From a virus: a stretch of 24,044 nucleotides of DNA. This document shows, one piece after another, positions 3,473 through 15,845 of the stretch. The stretch is from the IMG/VR virus record IMGVR_UViG_3300042691_023164, positions 1 through 24,044 of that record. One strand, written 5' to 3'. Below the pieces are notes generated by a model. It was given only the letters and a program-made list of their open reading frames with translations, was not told the origin of the DNA and ran no database searches. A program made the position numbers and the translations under genes. Within the stretch, counting starts at the first letter, position 1. The number at the start of each line of letters is the position of its first letter.

Positions 3473-5518
3473 ATGGACAAAAAGATGATCAACGAGGACG
3501 CCGATGTCGAGAACATTGGCATCATGCAGGGTTTCTTGGACAGCATGGATGACGATGGGGACGACGAAGACGATGAGACCCCGGAGGAGTTGATGGATCG
3601 TCGACCCGACAGCCCTGAAATCCTGATGAACAACCTGCGCGGGGACATGCGCTCCATTGATGCGCGCCGCGACGAGTTGGCCGACTTGGTGGGCTACGCC
3701 GCAGCGGCTGAGACACCCGAGACGGTGTTGGCCATGCTGCAGCCTGTGCTGGCGCAGCAGGGTGGTGGCGGCATTGGCGCGCTGCCTCAATCGCAAGACA
3801 TGGCCCAAGGGCCACAGCCCCCGATGATGGAGGGCATGCCCGGTATGCCTCCACCCGGTATGCCTCCCTTACCTGAAGGCGCTCCACCCATGATGCCCGG
3901 TGCAGACATGGCACCTCCTCCTGCACAGGACGGGGGCATTGCGGCGTTGCTGGCAGGTGCAGGTGGCATGCCTGCTGAAGGCGGCATGCCTGCCTCTGAT
4001 CAGCCTCCGATTCAGATGGCCCGTGGCGGGTACGTCCAGCGTTTTAGCGAGGGGTCCGATGAGGACGGTGTGACCCCTGCTGAAGATGAATCGTCCTCTT
4101 TGGGTTTTACGCCCCCGCCTGAGGTGGTGGCGGATGCGCGCACCCAGCTCTTGTCCACACTGGCCCAGCAGCCCCAACGGGTCCCAGAACTGGGTGCCGA
4201 GGCGGCCAAGCGGGCCGAGCTGTACAAGACGATCTTGGGTGACTCCTCGCAAGGGCGCGAGGCACAGATGCTCCTGTCCCTTGGACAACGGGCCTTTAAC
4301 TACGCGGCCAACGTCGACGATGCGGGTCGCCCGCTTCGCGGCTCGGGCTTTAGCCGCTTGGCCGGTGCCGTACGCACGTTGCCGGCCGAGATGGCGCAGT
4401 ACATCTCGGCCGCTGACAAGGAGCAGCGTCAGACCAAGTTGCTGGGCCTGCAGGCCGCTGAGAAGGAAATCGAGAGCGTGCGTGCCTCCAACCTCAAGCT
4501 GTTGGAGACCCAGCGCAAGAGCTACGCGGACGTGCTCAAGGCCGCTGGCAAGTCGGGCGACTCCAATCCATTCGGCAACAGTTTGGCAGGTCGAAGTTTG
4601 GACATGTTCGTGCGGTACGCTCCTTTGTATGCCAAGGGTGACCTCAACGAGGATTCCGAGCGCTACTTCTTATCGGCCGTGACCAACTACACACAGCCCA
4701 CGGTGACGGAGTACATCGACCCGTTGACGGGTGAAAAGACCTTGCGCACGCAGCAGAACAAGCTGCCGGAGTTTGTCACCACCGCCTTGCGGGCTCGCAA
4801 CAAAGCGCCTTCCAGTGCCGCGCCGCCTGTTTCGCCACCTGTCCGTGCGCCGGCTGCTCCTGGTGCAGGGACGGGTGCGGCGGTGGAGCCCGTACAGACT
4901 GCCCCTTCTCCCGATCCCGTGATCGGCATGGGCGCGGACCCTGCAACGCTGCCCGAAGCGGTGCGTCCTGTGGTGCAAAGCGCGCCGCAGTCCACCTTCT
5001 TTGACCTGTCAAGCACGGGCACGGGCTTTGTGCCGGTGATCGTCTCGGGCATCGCCCGAAACATCCCCATTGAAGCGGCAGGCCAGATCAAGCCGGAATT
5101 CCAACAGGGCACGACCATGTTGGAGAACATGCGCAACCGCGTGGTCAACGTCTTGCAAGAGAACCCCCGTTTCGCAGAGGGCGAGCGCACGCAAATCCTG
5201 CGTGAGTTGGACATCGGCCCGCGCGCCCTGACCAACAAGCAGGCGTATCTCAACCAGATCGTGGCCTTGGACAACGTCTTTGACGGCATCCAAACCAAGA
5301 CCCAGGGGGTAGCGGACACCAAAAACACGGGCATGGAAACACGGCGCGAGGCCTACAAAAAACTGGAAGAAGTCAACTTCATCCGAGACCTTTTGGGCGT
5401 GCGAGAGCGTAAGATCAGCACCACCGAGGCATGGAAATCGGCCCCTCCCGGGGAGTACCTCGTGTTCGATCCCAACCGCAAAGTCTACGTATACGCTCGC
5501 AAAAAAGGAACTCCGTAA
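3473..5518 (+). CDS. Putative virion structural protein with acidic N-terminus and Met/Pro-rich region
   Basis: A 681-residue protein starting at an ATG nine bases after the previous stop, with an AGAGGA ribosome binding site. Residues about 1-45 are very acidic (DDDGDDEDDE). A Met/Pro/Gly-rich low-complexity region follows (about 120-180, repeats of GMPPPGMPP type), then a short MARGGYVQRFSEGS block that I recall from environmental phage proteins. The middle (about 220-360) is predicted helical, followed by an Ala/Pro linker (about 440-480) and a conserved-looking C-terminal domain ending in PGEYLVFDPN. The mixture of acidic, linker and helical parts would suit a virion-assembly or internal-virion protein, but I recognise no defined family. 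The stop overlaps the next start by one base (TAATG). Confidence 0.73.
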   Translation: MDKKMINEDADVENIGIMQGFLDSMDDDGDDEDDETPEELMDRRPDSPEILMNNLRGDMRSIDARRDELADLVGYAAAAETPETVLAMLQPVLAQQGGGGIGALPQSQDMAQGPQPPMMEGMPGMPPPGMPPLPEGAPPMMPGADMAPPPAQDGGIAALLAGAGGMPAEGGMPASDQPPIQMARGGYVQRFSEGSDEDGVTPAEDESSSLGFTPPPEVVADARTQLLSTLAQQPQRVPELGAEAAKRAELYKTILGDSSQGREAQMLLSLGQRAFNYAANVDDAGRPLRGSGFSRLAGAVRTLPAEMAQYISAADKEQRQTKLLGLQAAEKEIESVRASNLKLLETQRKSYADVLKAAGKSGDSNPFGNSLAGRSLDMFVRYAPLYAKGDLNEDSERYFLSAVTNYTQPTVTEYIDPLTGEKTLRTQQNKLPEFVTTALRARNKAPSSAAPPVSPPVRAPAAPGAGTGAAVEPVQTAPSPDPVIGMGADPATLPEAVRPVVQSAPQSTFFDLSSTGTGFVPVIVSGIARNIPIEAAGQIKPEFQQGTTMLENMRNRVVNVLQENPRFAEGERTQILRELDIGPRALTNKQAYLNQIVALDNVFDGIQTKTQGVADTKNTGMETRREAYKKLEEVNFIRDLLGVRERKISTTEAWKSAPPGEYLVFDPNRKVYVYARKKGTP

Positions 5519-13123: not shown

Positions 13124-13360
13124 ATGAGCGAGACCCGTGAAATGACGTTTGGAGAGAAGGCCGTTGGCCTGACCTTCAACCCTGGCAACAATGCTGAGGT
13201 GGACGCATGCAAGCGCGAGTTTGCAGCTGTCATCGACCGCATGAACGACCTGCGCAACTCGACCGGCAACGCCGAGATCAAGCGCATGACAAGCGTTGCA
13301 ATCACTGAAGCGCAGACCGCGCAGATGTGGGCAGTAAAAGCCATCACATGGCAGTTTTAA
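13124..13360 (+). CDS. Acb2/Tad1-like small helical protein, candidate cyclic-nucleotide sponge
   Basis: A 78-residue protein preceded by an AAGGA site. After a short N-terminal part (MTFGEKAVGLTFNP) it should form a two-helix hairpin: about residues 22-45 and 49-76, the second ending in SVAITEAQTAQMWAVKAITW. The pattern of a small helical hairpin ending in S-x-A-x-T-x-x-x-x-A-x-M-W-A is what I recall of the Acb2/Tad1 hairpin family, whose characterised members bind cyclic oligonucleotide or cyclic ADP-ribose signals and so block CBASS or Thoeris defence. No binding residues can be checked here, and the family call is from memory. It lies between a conserved unknown gene and the ssDNA-binding candidate, and shares an almost identical 19-nt leader with the latter. 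Confidence 0.6.
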   Translation: MSETREMTFGEKAVGLTFNPGNNAEVDACKREFAAVIDRMNDLRNSTGNAEIKRMTSVAITEAQTAQMWAVKAITWQF

Positions 13361-13387: not shown

Positions 13388-14161
13388 ATGGCTAAGAACG
13401 AACTCGCGGAAAAAGCTGCCAACACCGCATTGGCAATCATGAGCGACCTGGAACAGGACGCAGGTGCCGGCTTTGACGGCATGACGCAAGAGGACTATGC
13501 ACTGCCCTTCCTGCGCTTGCTCACCAGCACCAGCCCTGAAGTCGGTGAAGTTGATGGTGCCCTCCCAGGCATGATGCTCAACTCCGTCACCGGTGAACTG
13601 TACGACGGCAAAGCCGGCCTGATGGTCGTGCCCTGCGCCTACGTTCGCCAGTACATCGAATGGGCCCCACGCGGCCAAGGTAGCGGTGCACCCGTGCACA
13701 TCTACCCCGCCACCAGCGACATCCTGTCCCAGACCCACAAGGAACCCGGTGACAACAAGGATTACCTGGACAACGGCAACTACATCGAGAACACCGCCAA
13801 CTATTACGTGATGGTGATCAACGATGCTGGCGTGCCTGAGCCCGCACTGGTGACCATGAAGTCGACCCAGCTCAAGAAGAGCCGCAAGTGGAACAGCATG
13901 ATGCAGTCGGTCAAGATGGCAGGCAAGAACGGTATGTTCACCCCTCCCATGTACAGCCAGGTGTACCGTCTGAGCTCTGTGGCCGAGTCCAACGACAAGG
14001 GCAAGTGGTATGGCTGGGAAATCGAGCGTATTGGCGCTGTAGAGTCAGCTGACATTTACAATGCCGCTCGATCGTTTGCGCAGTCGGTCGGCGCAGGCGA
14101 CGTTAAAGTTAAGCATGAAGGCGAGTCTGGCGCAACAGGCAACGGACCCGCTCCATTCTGA
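13388..14161 (+). CDS. Candidate phage single-stranded DNA-binding protein
   Basis: A 257-residue protein with an AAGGA site in the leader ACAAGGAACACGAACCATG. The middle is beta-rich with many aromatic residues (YVRQYIEWAPRG, NYYVMVIND, KWYGWEIERIG), compatible with an OB-type fold. The last part is flexible, Gly-rich and ends in GPAPF, which recalls the Pro-Phe tip that SSB proteins use to recruit partners, although the usual run of acidic residues is missing. Similar proteins occur next to primase and polymerase genes in phages and are often labelled ssDNA-binding. Here it directly precedes the structured RNA and the primase. The assignment is inferential; a recombination mediator is another possibility. 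Confidence 0.55.
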   Translation: MAKNELAEKAANTALAIMSDLEQDAGAGFDGMTQEDYALPFLRLLTSTSPEVGEVDGALPGMMLNSVTGELYDGKAGLMVVPCAYVRQYIEWAPRGQGSGAPVHIYPATSDILSQTHKEPGDNKDYLDNGNYIENTANYYVMVINDAGVPEPALVTMKSTQLKKSRKWNSMMQSVKMAGKNGMFTPPMYSQVYRLSSVAESNDKGKWYGWEIERIGAVESADIYNAARSFAQSVGAGDVKVKHEGESGATGNGPAPF

Positions 14162-14166
14162 GTTTT

Positions 14167-14292
14167 GGGGGACACATGCGGCTCGTTGGACCACCCGGGT
14201 TTAGCATGTGTCTGACCTTGTCCAAAGCGGAAAGCCAAGGGATTTGCAATTACCTCGGTAGCAAGAGGGCAGTAAACCGCATCGTGTCCCCC
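14167..14292 (+). ncRNA. Structured RNA element upstream of primase, with two mutually exclusive helices
   Basis: This fills almost all of the 151-base gap between the ssDNA-binding candidate and the primase. A long closing stem joins 14167-14181 to 14277-14292: nine pairs (GGGGGACAC with GTGTCCCCC), one bulged C at 14283, then six more (ATGCGG with CCGCAT). The same 5' strand can instead form a perfect 9-bp local hairpin, GACACATGC (14171-14179) with GCATGTGTC (14204-14212). Smaller helices are CCTTG/CAAGG (14216-14220 with 14236-14240) and TTGC/GCAA (14244-14247 with 14261-14264) with TAC/GTA inside. The 3' end is 20 bases before the primase ATG. It matches no tRNA or riboswitch I recognise. 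It could be a leader that switches primase translation, an RNase III processing site, or a free phage RNA. Confidence 0.7.
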
Positions 14293-14312
14293 ACCTAACG
14301 TAGAAAGAAGAA

Positions 14313-15845
14313 ATGACCGACATCACCAGGTTCAAGGCGATCTTTTCCGGCCTGGACATCGCCTATGGAACATACAAAATCGAATCGTCTCGTGGAGACG
14401 GCAAGCAGGCCGGAAAGGCCGTCGTGGTGCGCAAGCCACCGACTGACGACCTCTGGACCAAGCACCTACAGGGCGTTGAGCCGAGTCTGGGCATCATCCC
14501 AATCCGGGCGGATAACTCCTGTATCTGGGGCTGTATTGACATTGACCAGTATCCACTGGACCACGCCGGGCTCATAAAGAAGGTCCGCAGCCTGGGCCTG
14601 CCCATGGTGGTGTGCCGCAGCAAATCCGGCGGTGCACACGTCTTCTTGTTCACCCGTGAGCCTATTCCCGCTGCCGAGATGCAGCGCTACCTCAAGGCCT
14701 CTGCCGCCCTGCTGGGCGAGGCTGGCCGAGAGATTTTCCCTAAGCAAGCTGAGATTTTGGTTGACCGTGGCGACACGGGCAACTTTCTGAACCTGCCCTA
14801 TTTTGGCGGGGATCAGACCATGCGCTACGCCATTAAGGACGATGGCAATGCTGCAACCCTTGAAGAGTTTTACGAGCTCTACGAGCAGTGGGTGCAAGAC
14901 CCCGACCTGAAATTTCCTGAAGAGCCCAAGGCACCTGACCACCCCATCAAGGATGGCCCGCCCTGCCTACAGGCCCTGTGTGCACAAGGCGTGCCAGAAG
15001 GCACACGCAACAACGCGCTCTTCAACATCGGCATCTACCTCAAGAAGGTCATCCCCATCCACTGGGACGATGCCCTGGTTGAGCACAACATGAAGTACGT
15101 CTCGCCGCCGCTGCCAAACAACGAGGTTCAAATCCTCGTCAAGCAGCTGCACAAGAAAGAGTACCGGTACAAGTGCAAGGACGCGCCCCTCAACAGCTTT
15201 TGCAACAGCGGCCTGTGCCGTACCCGCAAACACGGGATCGGGGCCAACGGGCCAGACAGCCCGCAGATGTCCTCGCTCTCCAAATACAACTCCGAGCCCC
15301 CGCTGTGGTTCTTGGACATCAACGGTAAACGCATCGAGCTCGACACTGAGAGCTTGTTCGCACAAGCCGCTTTCCAAAAGGCCTGCGTCGAAAAGCTCAA
15401 CCTCCTGCCGCCCACGCTGCGCAAGCAAGACTGGGAGCAGCTGCTCAATGCGCTGCTCAAAGAGATGGTGGAGACCGAGCAAATCACGGAGGCCAGTGAA
15501 GACACCAGCATCACCGGGCGCTTCAACGACATGCTCGAAGAGTTCTGCACCCACCTGCAGCAAGCGATGGACCGCGATGAGATTCTCATGGGCCGTCCTT
15601 GGACAGATGACGCAGAGGCCAAGACATATTTCCGCATGAAGGACCTCGAGGCCCACCTGCTGCGCAACAACTTCAAGGGCATGACTCATCCGAAGATGGC
15701 GCAGCGCCTGCGCGACCTCGGAGGCGAGCCCATCAGCCTGTTCCTGAAGAACCGCACCACCCGCTGCTGGAAAATCCCACGCTTTGAGCGCCAGGATGCC
15801 CCGTTTGACACCCCCGAGCAACGCGCTGTAAGGAGCCCCTTCTGA
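14313..15845 (+). CDS. Archaeo-eukaryotic-type DNA primase (TOTE-like AEP)
   Basis: A 510-residue protein that should synthesise primers for DNA replication. The AEP catalytic motifs are visible in order: DID (76-78, the metal-binding DxD), SKSGGAH (103-109, the sxH motif) and ILVDRGD (149-154, third acidic site). A likely zinc site follows: C288, C297 and C302 with H307. The C-terminal 200 residues are helical and may contact a helicase. The motif set and the GCIDID context are those of the primase domain seen in TOTE conflict systems and many phages. The ATG follows an AGAAAGAAG site 20 bases after the structured RNA; the stop overlaps the next start by one base (TGATG). Confidence 0.85.
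   Translation: MTDITRFKAIFSGLDIAYGTYKIESSRGDGKQAGKAVVVRKPPTDDLWTKHLQGVEPSLGIIPIRADNSCIWGCIDIDQYPLDHAGLIKKVRSLGLPMVVCRSKSGGAHVFLFTREPIPAAEMQRYLKASAALLGEAGREIFPKQAEILVDRGDTGNFLNLPYFGGDQTMRYAIKDDGNAATLEEFYELYEQWVQDPDLKFPEEPKAPDHPIKDGPPCLQALCAQGVPEGTRNNALFNIGIYLKKVIPIHWDDALVEHNMKYVSPPLPNNEVQILVKQLHKKEYRYKCKDAPLNSFCNSGLCRTRKHGIGANGPDSPQMSSLSKYNSEPPLWFLDINGKRIELDTESLFAQAAFQKACVEKLNLLPPTLRKQDWEQLLNALLKEMVETEQITEASEDTSITGRFNDMLEEFCTHLQQAMDRDEILMGRPWTDDAEAKTYFRMKDLEAHLLRNNFKGMTHPKMAQRLRDLGGEPISLFLKNRTTRCWKIPRFERQDAPFDTPEQRAVRSPF

Follow-up and report, generated by a model that had tools for sequence, protein, structure and literature searches.

A putative autonomous RNA family with a three-way junction, carried between the SSB-like and primase genes of an environmental phage

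The gap between the gp34-family gene and the primase gene of the sequence analyzed here, a fragment from an uncultured phage (the window, meaning the whole stretch of 24,044 nucleotides from IMG/VR record IMGVR_UViG_3300042691_023164) encodes, as we conclude with high confidence from comparative sequence analysis, a real and conserved folded RNA. This RNA and its homologues, termed class A, are predicted to form a three-way junction of the stems P1, P2, and P3, and our confidence that this is the real fold is equally high (Table 1). Our preferred reading, which we hold about as readily as we doubt it, is that class A represents a phage RNA family that has not been described before, is autonomous, travels as a cassette, and yields a stable excised RNA acting in trans or bound by protein. 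Class A adds a covariation-supported family absent from Rfam 15. It also draws attention to one intergenic slot in a large environmental phage group that almost always holds a structured RNA, the type of which has changed at least 15 times while the flanking genes stayed constant. This raises a testable question, namely whether the RNAs of the slot insulate mRNAs and can replace one another, or are small phage RNAs that have targets of their own.

Table 1. Positions in the window of the class A element, its helices, and the adjoining features
Feature	Position	Strand	Evidence or remark
Upstream gene, Pam3 gp34 family	13388..14161	+	PF23977, E 1.1e-66; phrog_2402
Whole structured RNA element (class A, three-way-junction RNA)	14167..14292	+	Model R1, 15-homologue alignment, covariation
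P1 closing stem, 5' strand GGGGGACACATGCGG	14167..14181	+	Pairs with 14277-14292
P1 closing stem, 3' strand CCGCATCGTGTCCCCC	14277..14292	+	Pairs with 14167-14181
Competing (nascent) helix, 5' strand GACACATGC	14171..14179	+	Exact complement of 14204-14212
Competing helix, 3' strand GCATGTGTC, within the enlarged P2 loop	14204..14212	+	Complement of 14171-14179
P2 hairpin, 5' strand GUUGGA	14185..14190	+	Pairs with 14211-14216
P2 hairpin, 3' strand UCUGAC	14211..14216	+	Pairs with 14185-14190
P3 base, 5' strand UUGUCC	14218..14223	+	Pairs with 14267-14272
P3 base, 3' strand GGGCAG	14267..14272	+	Pairs with 14218-14223
P3 upper helix, 5' strand GCCAAGG	14234..14240	+	Pairs with 14253-14259
P3 upper helix, 3' strand CCUCGGU	14253..14259	+	Pairs with 14234-14240
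Purine-rich ribosome-binding region of the primase, outside the RNA	14300..14312	+	AGAAAGAAGAA or a close variant in many relatives
Downstream gene, archaeo-eukaryotic primase	14313..15845	+	AEP-TOTE PF22548, E 1e-12; phrog_21866, E 9.8e-98

Fold and covariation of the class A RNA

The class A architecture consists of the closing stem P1, the sequence CUCG, the P2 hairpin, (A)CC, a long P3 with conserved internal loops (CCRAAGCGGRAAGCC / GGUAGCAAGAGG), and UAAA leading back into P1, over a length of about 115 to 140 nt. In the window, P1 comprises 15 pairs and one bulged C (14283). An earlier note, made from the DNA of the window, had pointed out that nine bases of a 15-pair closing stem are also perfectly complementary to a nearby segment, and that the stem ends 20 bases before the primase ATG. 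On reading the sequence, the two nine-base segments proved to be exact reverse complements, the first of them lies inside the 5' strand of the 15-pair P1, and the distance from the end of P1 to the ATG is indeed 20 bases. The region 14160-14315 has a minimum free energy (MFE) of -54.5 kcal/mol (z -2.57), and 3 of 200 shuffled sequences were equally low.

To analyze covariation, we used an alignment of 15 distinct class A sequences, 8 from the window clade and 7 others, so that half of it comes from one clade. Compensatory changes in homologues, the check called for in the earlier note, were present in P1, P2, and P3: double-sided compensatory cells numbered 60 against 21.4 in shuffles, paired cells amounted to 89.3% against 75.3%, and the covariation score was 0.470 against 0.198 (0/500 shuffles in each comparison). 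Changes on both sides were detected at 14 pairs distributed over the three stems, and shifting the partner columns by 1 to 3 positions reduced pairing to 27% to 51%. In P1, the four inner pairs show 4 to 5 pair types each across the family, and both sides have changed at 5 of the 6 pairs of P2. At the base of P3, the element pair 55-103 is UA, CG, GC, or UG across the family, and double-sided changes occur at three pairs of the P3 upper helix in the window clade. When this clade was taken alone, the P1-P3 fold likewise exceeded shuffles. The covariance model R1 matched the window element over the full model length with 117.5 bits, the window being itself a member of the training set.

Two G-U pairs in the P3 base are fixed or nearly so (15/15 and 13/15 sequences), and many more G-U cells are present in the alignment. 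This argues that the + strand RNA, and not the DNA, is what folds. The junction sequence GGCTCG, CCTTG, and AGTAAAC is invariant across unrelated genomic settings. Nearest-neighbor energies were -40.6 kcal/mol for the covariation-supported fold, -42.1 kcal/mol for the fold constrained to the alternative helix, and -51.6 kcal/mol for the MFE fold. Because the covariation-supported fold lies far above the MFE, it is covariation and not energy that identifies the interior helices. Two further candidate pairings were considered and set aside. The alternative P2 helix 14185-14192/14198-14205, which the energy model prefers, was 89% paired with a single double-sided pair, and is thus weaker than P2. 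A pseudoknot between UUUGC in the P3 loop and GUAAA, noticed by eye, involves a loop that is not conserved beyond the window clade, and we make no claim for it.

Genomic settings of class A and the RNA types of the slot

The gp34-family protein upstream of the element is probably an SSB-like, single-stranded (ss) DNA-binding protein. Its structure, predicted with moderate confidence (pLDDT 73), suggests an OB-like fold, and the best PDB matches include T4 gp32 and RB69 SSB, with weak scores (E approximately 0.05, Z at most 4.8), and a chain of a phiC31 integrase-RDF fusion (Z 6.7). The structure also weakly resembles annotated viral SSBs, and gp34 and most of its homologues end in a "..PF" C-terminal tip, as bacterial SSBs do. 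Downstream of the primase gene lie genes for a helicase of the UvrD type and a DNA polymerase of family A, and the primase is 78% identical to that of phage DSL-LC04, to which the window phage is related. Just upstream of gp34, positions 13124-13357 (+) encode a small protein with an Acb2/Tad1 hairpin domain (PF24729, E 1.7e-9), which suggests a cyclic-nucleotide sponge of the anti-CBASS/Thoeris type.

Pattern scans of viral contigs located the class A core outside the window clade; gene names at these loci were read from protein sequences, except for the families searched at the loop-E loci described below. Class A occurs in eight genomic settings. In the window clade, the SSB-like gene precedes it and the primase follows; in L181, its neighbors are an SSB-like gene upstream and a primase-like gene downstream. 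In L145/L148, it comes after an SSB-like gene and ahead of an HTH gene, which is itself followed by a primase-like gene. L168/L171 carry it upstream of a polymerase gene in a replication operon. In L173/L175, it sits flush between two tRNA genes, tRNA-Tyr and tRNA-Asp, and a 16-pair P1 takes up all but one base of the inter-tRNA gap. The remaining settings are a position near tRNA-Thr and tRNA-Trp (L182), one directly behind a promoter-like site (L183), and an intergenic region ahead of a terminase-like gene (L188). Replication operons thus host 4 of the 8 settings, and in 3 of these 4 class A comes right after an SSB-like gene. No single type of gene is conserved downstream, where a primase, an HTH protein, a small predicted protein, a tRNA, or a terminase gene is found. 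Model R1 detected exactly one copy per viral record and had no match in 369 bacterial genomes. When the elements of the window, L182, and L173 were searched as DNA against named phages and plasmids, only the primase coding part matched, and class A has been seen only in metagenomic viral contigs. In L182, approximately 440 bases without an evident gene (2446-2884) precede class A and the tRNAs and may hold more RNAs.

The autonomy of class A, in which we place moderate confidence, is argued from the invariance of the junction sequence together with the copies in tRNA arrays, and the flush position between two tRNA genes suggests excision from longer transcripts. According to this preferred reading, the class A RNA would be cut from longer transcripts, would fold and act alone, and would exert its effect in trans or within a particle with bound protein; its place in the window, after the SSB-like gene and ahead of the primase, would be that of a passenger. 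Any specific target can be named with low confidence only. More tentatively, the replication-operon slot next to the SSB-like gene may swap unrelated RNA cassettes, with class A as a stable trans-acting one, produced inside tRNA arrays as well, serving, for example, anti-defense or the control of host RNA machinery.

The slot itself was analyzed in primase relatives, of which 80 were kept of 594 confirmed, and nearly all 80 provided the sequence of the gap between gp34 and the primase. Nearly every gap contains a stem-loop, the type of which varies: class A as in the window (151 nt), class B, class C, class D, or plain hairpins. Class B spans approximately 119 nt and has the form GGGGCCGAAAGTG..GATAGTTG..GTAGCTC..GGGTACCC..GAGTAGGCCCC, and class C carries a loop-E motif, GAA/AGUA, at its base. 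Both share with class A the slot and the GGGG-type closing stem; however, in these loop-E hairpins the GAA/AGUA base motif replaces the long P1 and the interior differs. Model R1 matched none of the slot RNAs of classes B to E. In class B, strong covariation was detected in an alignment of L003 4882-5000 and 14 more slot sequences (30 double-sided cells against 9.9, 0/500). Class B is apparently unrelated to class A and a second structured RNA of the same slot. Some relatives have a plain GC hairpin alone in the gap, and some of the plain hairpins have T-rich tails; in another relative (L073, 758-997), two loop-E elements lie in tandem within one gap. Stop-codon readthrough into the primase was rejected as an explanation of the gaps, since their lengths fall in all three frames.

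A tree of 79 primases requires 15 changes among the five RNA types. Class A accounts for 4 changes (5% to 95% bootstrap range 4-4), 3 of them forced by well-supported branches, and the nearest relatives of the window primase include class B carriers. The RNA is therefore exchanged, whereas the genes on either side of it are kept.

Elsewhere, too, loop-E hairpins (GAAAGCGGATGCTG..CAGACGCAGCGAGTA) closed by a GGGGCC stem were found repeatedly, and several directly follow ssDNA-binding genes that belong to differing families. They were observed upstream of family A polymerase-like genes (L117, L120, L125, L127, L129, L133, L134, and L138) and at further loci (L121, L131, L135, L139, L165, and L166), where the preceding ssDNA-binding gene is of the Enc34 type (PF10991, L121), DUF669/phrog_6015 (L131 and L135), or an SSB of PF00436 (L166). 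That several such families are followed by loop-E elements indicates that the SSB neighborhood is a recurrent pattern. In L168, a loop-E element (4585-4665) directly follows the SSB-like gene and class A (4895-5015) comes after the next small gene. The loop-E core was also seen in three bacterial contigs (L162, L163, and L164, from a Xylophilus MAG, Achromobacter, and Geminicoccus), in one case near a tRNA. That the motif in these contigs derives from a group II intron or a DGR was considered and dropped, Rfam having given only a tRNA.

The reading that ranks second after an autonomous RNA, and that we hold with distinctly less conviction, is an intercistronic element acting in cis. An element of any class would block 3'-5' exonucleases or mark the place of processing, and the abundant SSB-like message would thereby last longer than that of the primase and polymerase, an effect that intercistronic hairpins have in other operons. 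Classes A, B, C, and D and plain hairpins would be interchangeable in this role. The observed interchange of types, down to a plain GC hairpin in some relatives, is consistent with this, as is the fixed position of the stems: the outer pair begins at most 16 nt from the stop codon and ends 12 to 40 nt ahead of the primase ATG in 51 of the 60 distinct gaps, the typical offsets being 6 and 19 nt. The cis reading likewise accommodates the share of class A settings found in replication operons, and the related elements behind Enc34-type, DUF669/SSB, and PF00436 SSB genes. T4 moreover provides a parallel for cleavage at the end of an SSB gene, because its gene 32 (SSB) mRNA is cut by RNase E close to the stop codon (PMC3014915). 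However, a cis element leaves unexplained both the invariant single-stranded junction sequence and the copies in tRNA arrays and in intergenic regions without an SSB gene.

The competing helix and the primase start

The earlier note had taken the two overlapping helices as the sign of a bistable, riboswitch-like or translationally timed leader of the primase. That the helices are mutually exclusive is real, and a nine-nt perfect complement of the P1 5' strand occurred in the loop region of only 1 of 2,000 shuffles. All 8 members of the window clade retain the competing helix, with 9 pairs in 7 of them and 8 pairs in L106, where 14174 and both of its partners have changed such that U-G pairing is possible in both helices, one alternative pair being broken. 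The bistability, however, is unbalanced at full length and limited to the clade. The competing helix was not found in the 7 class A members outside the clade or in 20 other slot RNAs tested (7/7 and 20/20), and its covariation within the clade, at one pair, was matched or exceeded by 65 of 500 shuffles and is not significant. In the full-length window RNA, P1 is preferred by 10.3 kcal/mol (probability of the alternative approximately 1e-6), and across the 8 clade members it wins by 5.2 to 11.7 kcal/mol (probability of the alternative at most 0.004). In nascent RNAs of approximately 51 to 128 nt, the competing helix is predicted in all 8 members with a probability of 0.92 to 1.0.

These predictions suggest that the pair of competing shapes probably reflects a transient stage of RNA synthesis and not a primase switch, the competing helix being at most a co-transcriptional intermediate. 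In the window clade, the nascent transcript would form the 14171-14179/14204-14212 hairpin, which would be displaced once the 3' strand of P1 (14277-14292) emerges. A role of the helix in folding order is possible in this clade, as a device of folding and not a regulatory switch of the primase.

A riboswitch or timed leader in which the competing helices switch primase expression would fit their retention throughout the clade, including the L106 changes compatible with both helices, but is improbable. The primase start region (14298-14315) is equally accessible in the two folds (unpaired 0.50 against 0.51). P1 is followed by ACCTAACGTAG, which is not the U run expected behind the GC stem of an intrinsic terminator, and a scan of the window element gave no terminator- or promoter-like site. 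The switch is thus unlikely because the start region is equally exposed, there is no terminator, and the helix is clade-limited with non-significant covariation; the genes downstream of class A vary as well, and this part of the earlier proposal was not supported.

We consider it just as improbable that the RNA is an autoregulatory operator, to which the SSB-like protein or the primase would bind and repress translation. The two genes adjoin the element, and in T4 gp32 and gp43 bind mRNA structures (PMC3014915); the window element resembles the gene 32 and gene 43 operators as a structured RNA at phage replication genes for SSB or polymerase. However, the T4 operators act at the start of their own gene, whereas the window RNA follows the SSB-like gene, and its stem stops 20 nt before the primase ATG and leaves the exposure of the start unaltered. 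Class A also occurs without SSB-like or primase genes nearby, and the same proteins accompany unrelated RNA folds in related slots. A DNA element such as a single-strand replication origin recognized by the primase, suggested by a hairpin adjoining the primase gene, is very improbable, since the fixed or near-fixed G-U pairs would be A-C mismatches on the other strand and class A copies lie in tRNA arrays.

Comparison with known RNAs

Class A is new as a family to Rfam and to the literature searched, and as a kind it belongs among the orphan structured RNAs of phages. The impression of the earlier note that the element resembles no known RNA class is borne out by Rfam 15, in which the window had no match at the gathering score and, at E 10, gave only chance-level matches to RAGATH-30 (12.3 bits) and GA-cis (11.3 bits); L182 gave none at E 10, and L145, L168, L173, and L175 had no match in Rfam 15 except tRNAs. 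A search of published papers found no matching description of the element.

GOLLD and ROOL RNAs are several hundred nucleotides long. They are ornate RNAs of bacteria and phages without known function, and phages and tRNA arrays are mentioned in a 2025 cryo-EM paper on them (PMC12286853); class A differs from them in its size of approximately 120 nt, its three-way junction, and its lack of an Rfam match. Like class A, the STAXI motif (Weinberg et al. 2010; PMC2864571) adjoins genes for ssDNA-binding or DNA-handling proteins; unlike class A, which has no Rfam match, it is a tandem array of pseudoknots. The int-alpA RNA (RF02996) is, like class A, a phage-associated structured RNA of the junction type, but it has another conserved core, a 71-position model, and a U-rich 3' end, and it did not match the window element. 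An int-alpA RNA (52.9 bits) was itself observed directly downstream of the primase gene of one relative (L021, 6544-6609).
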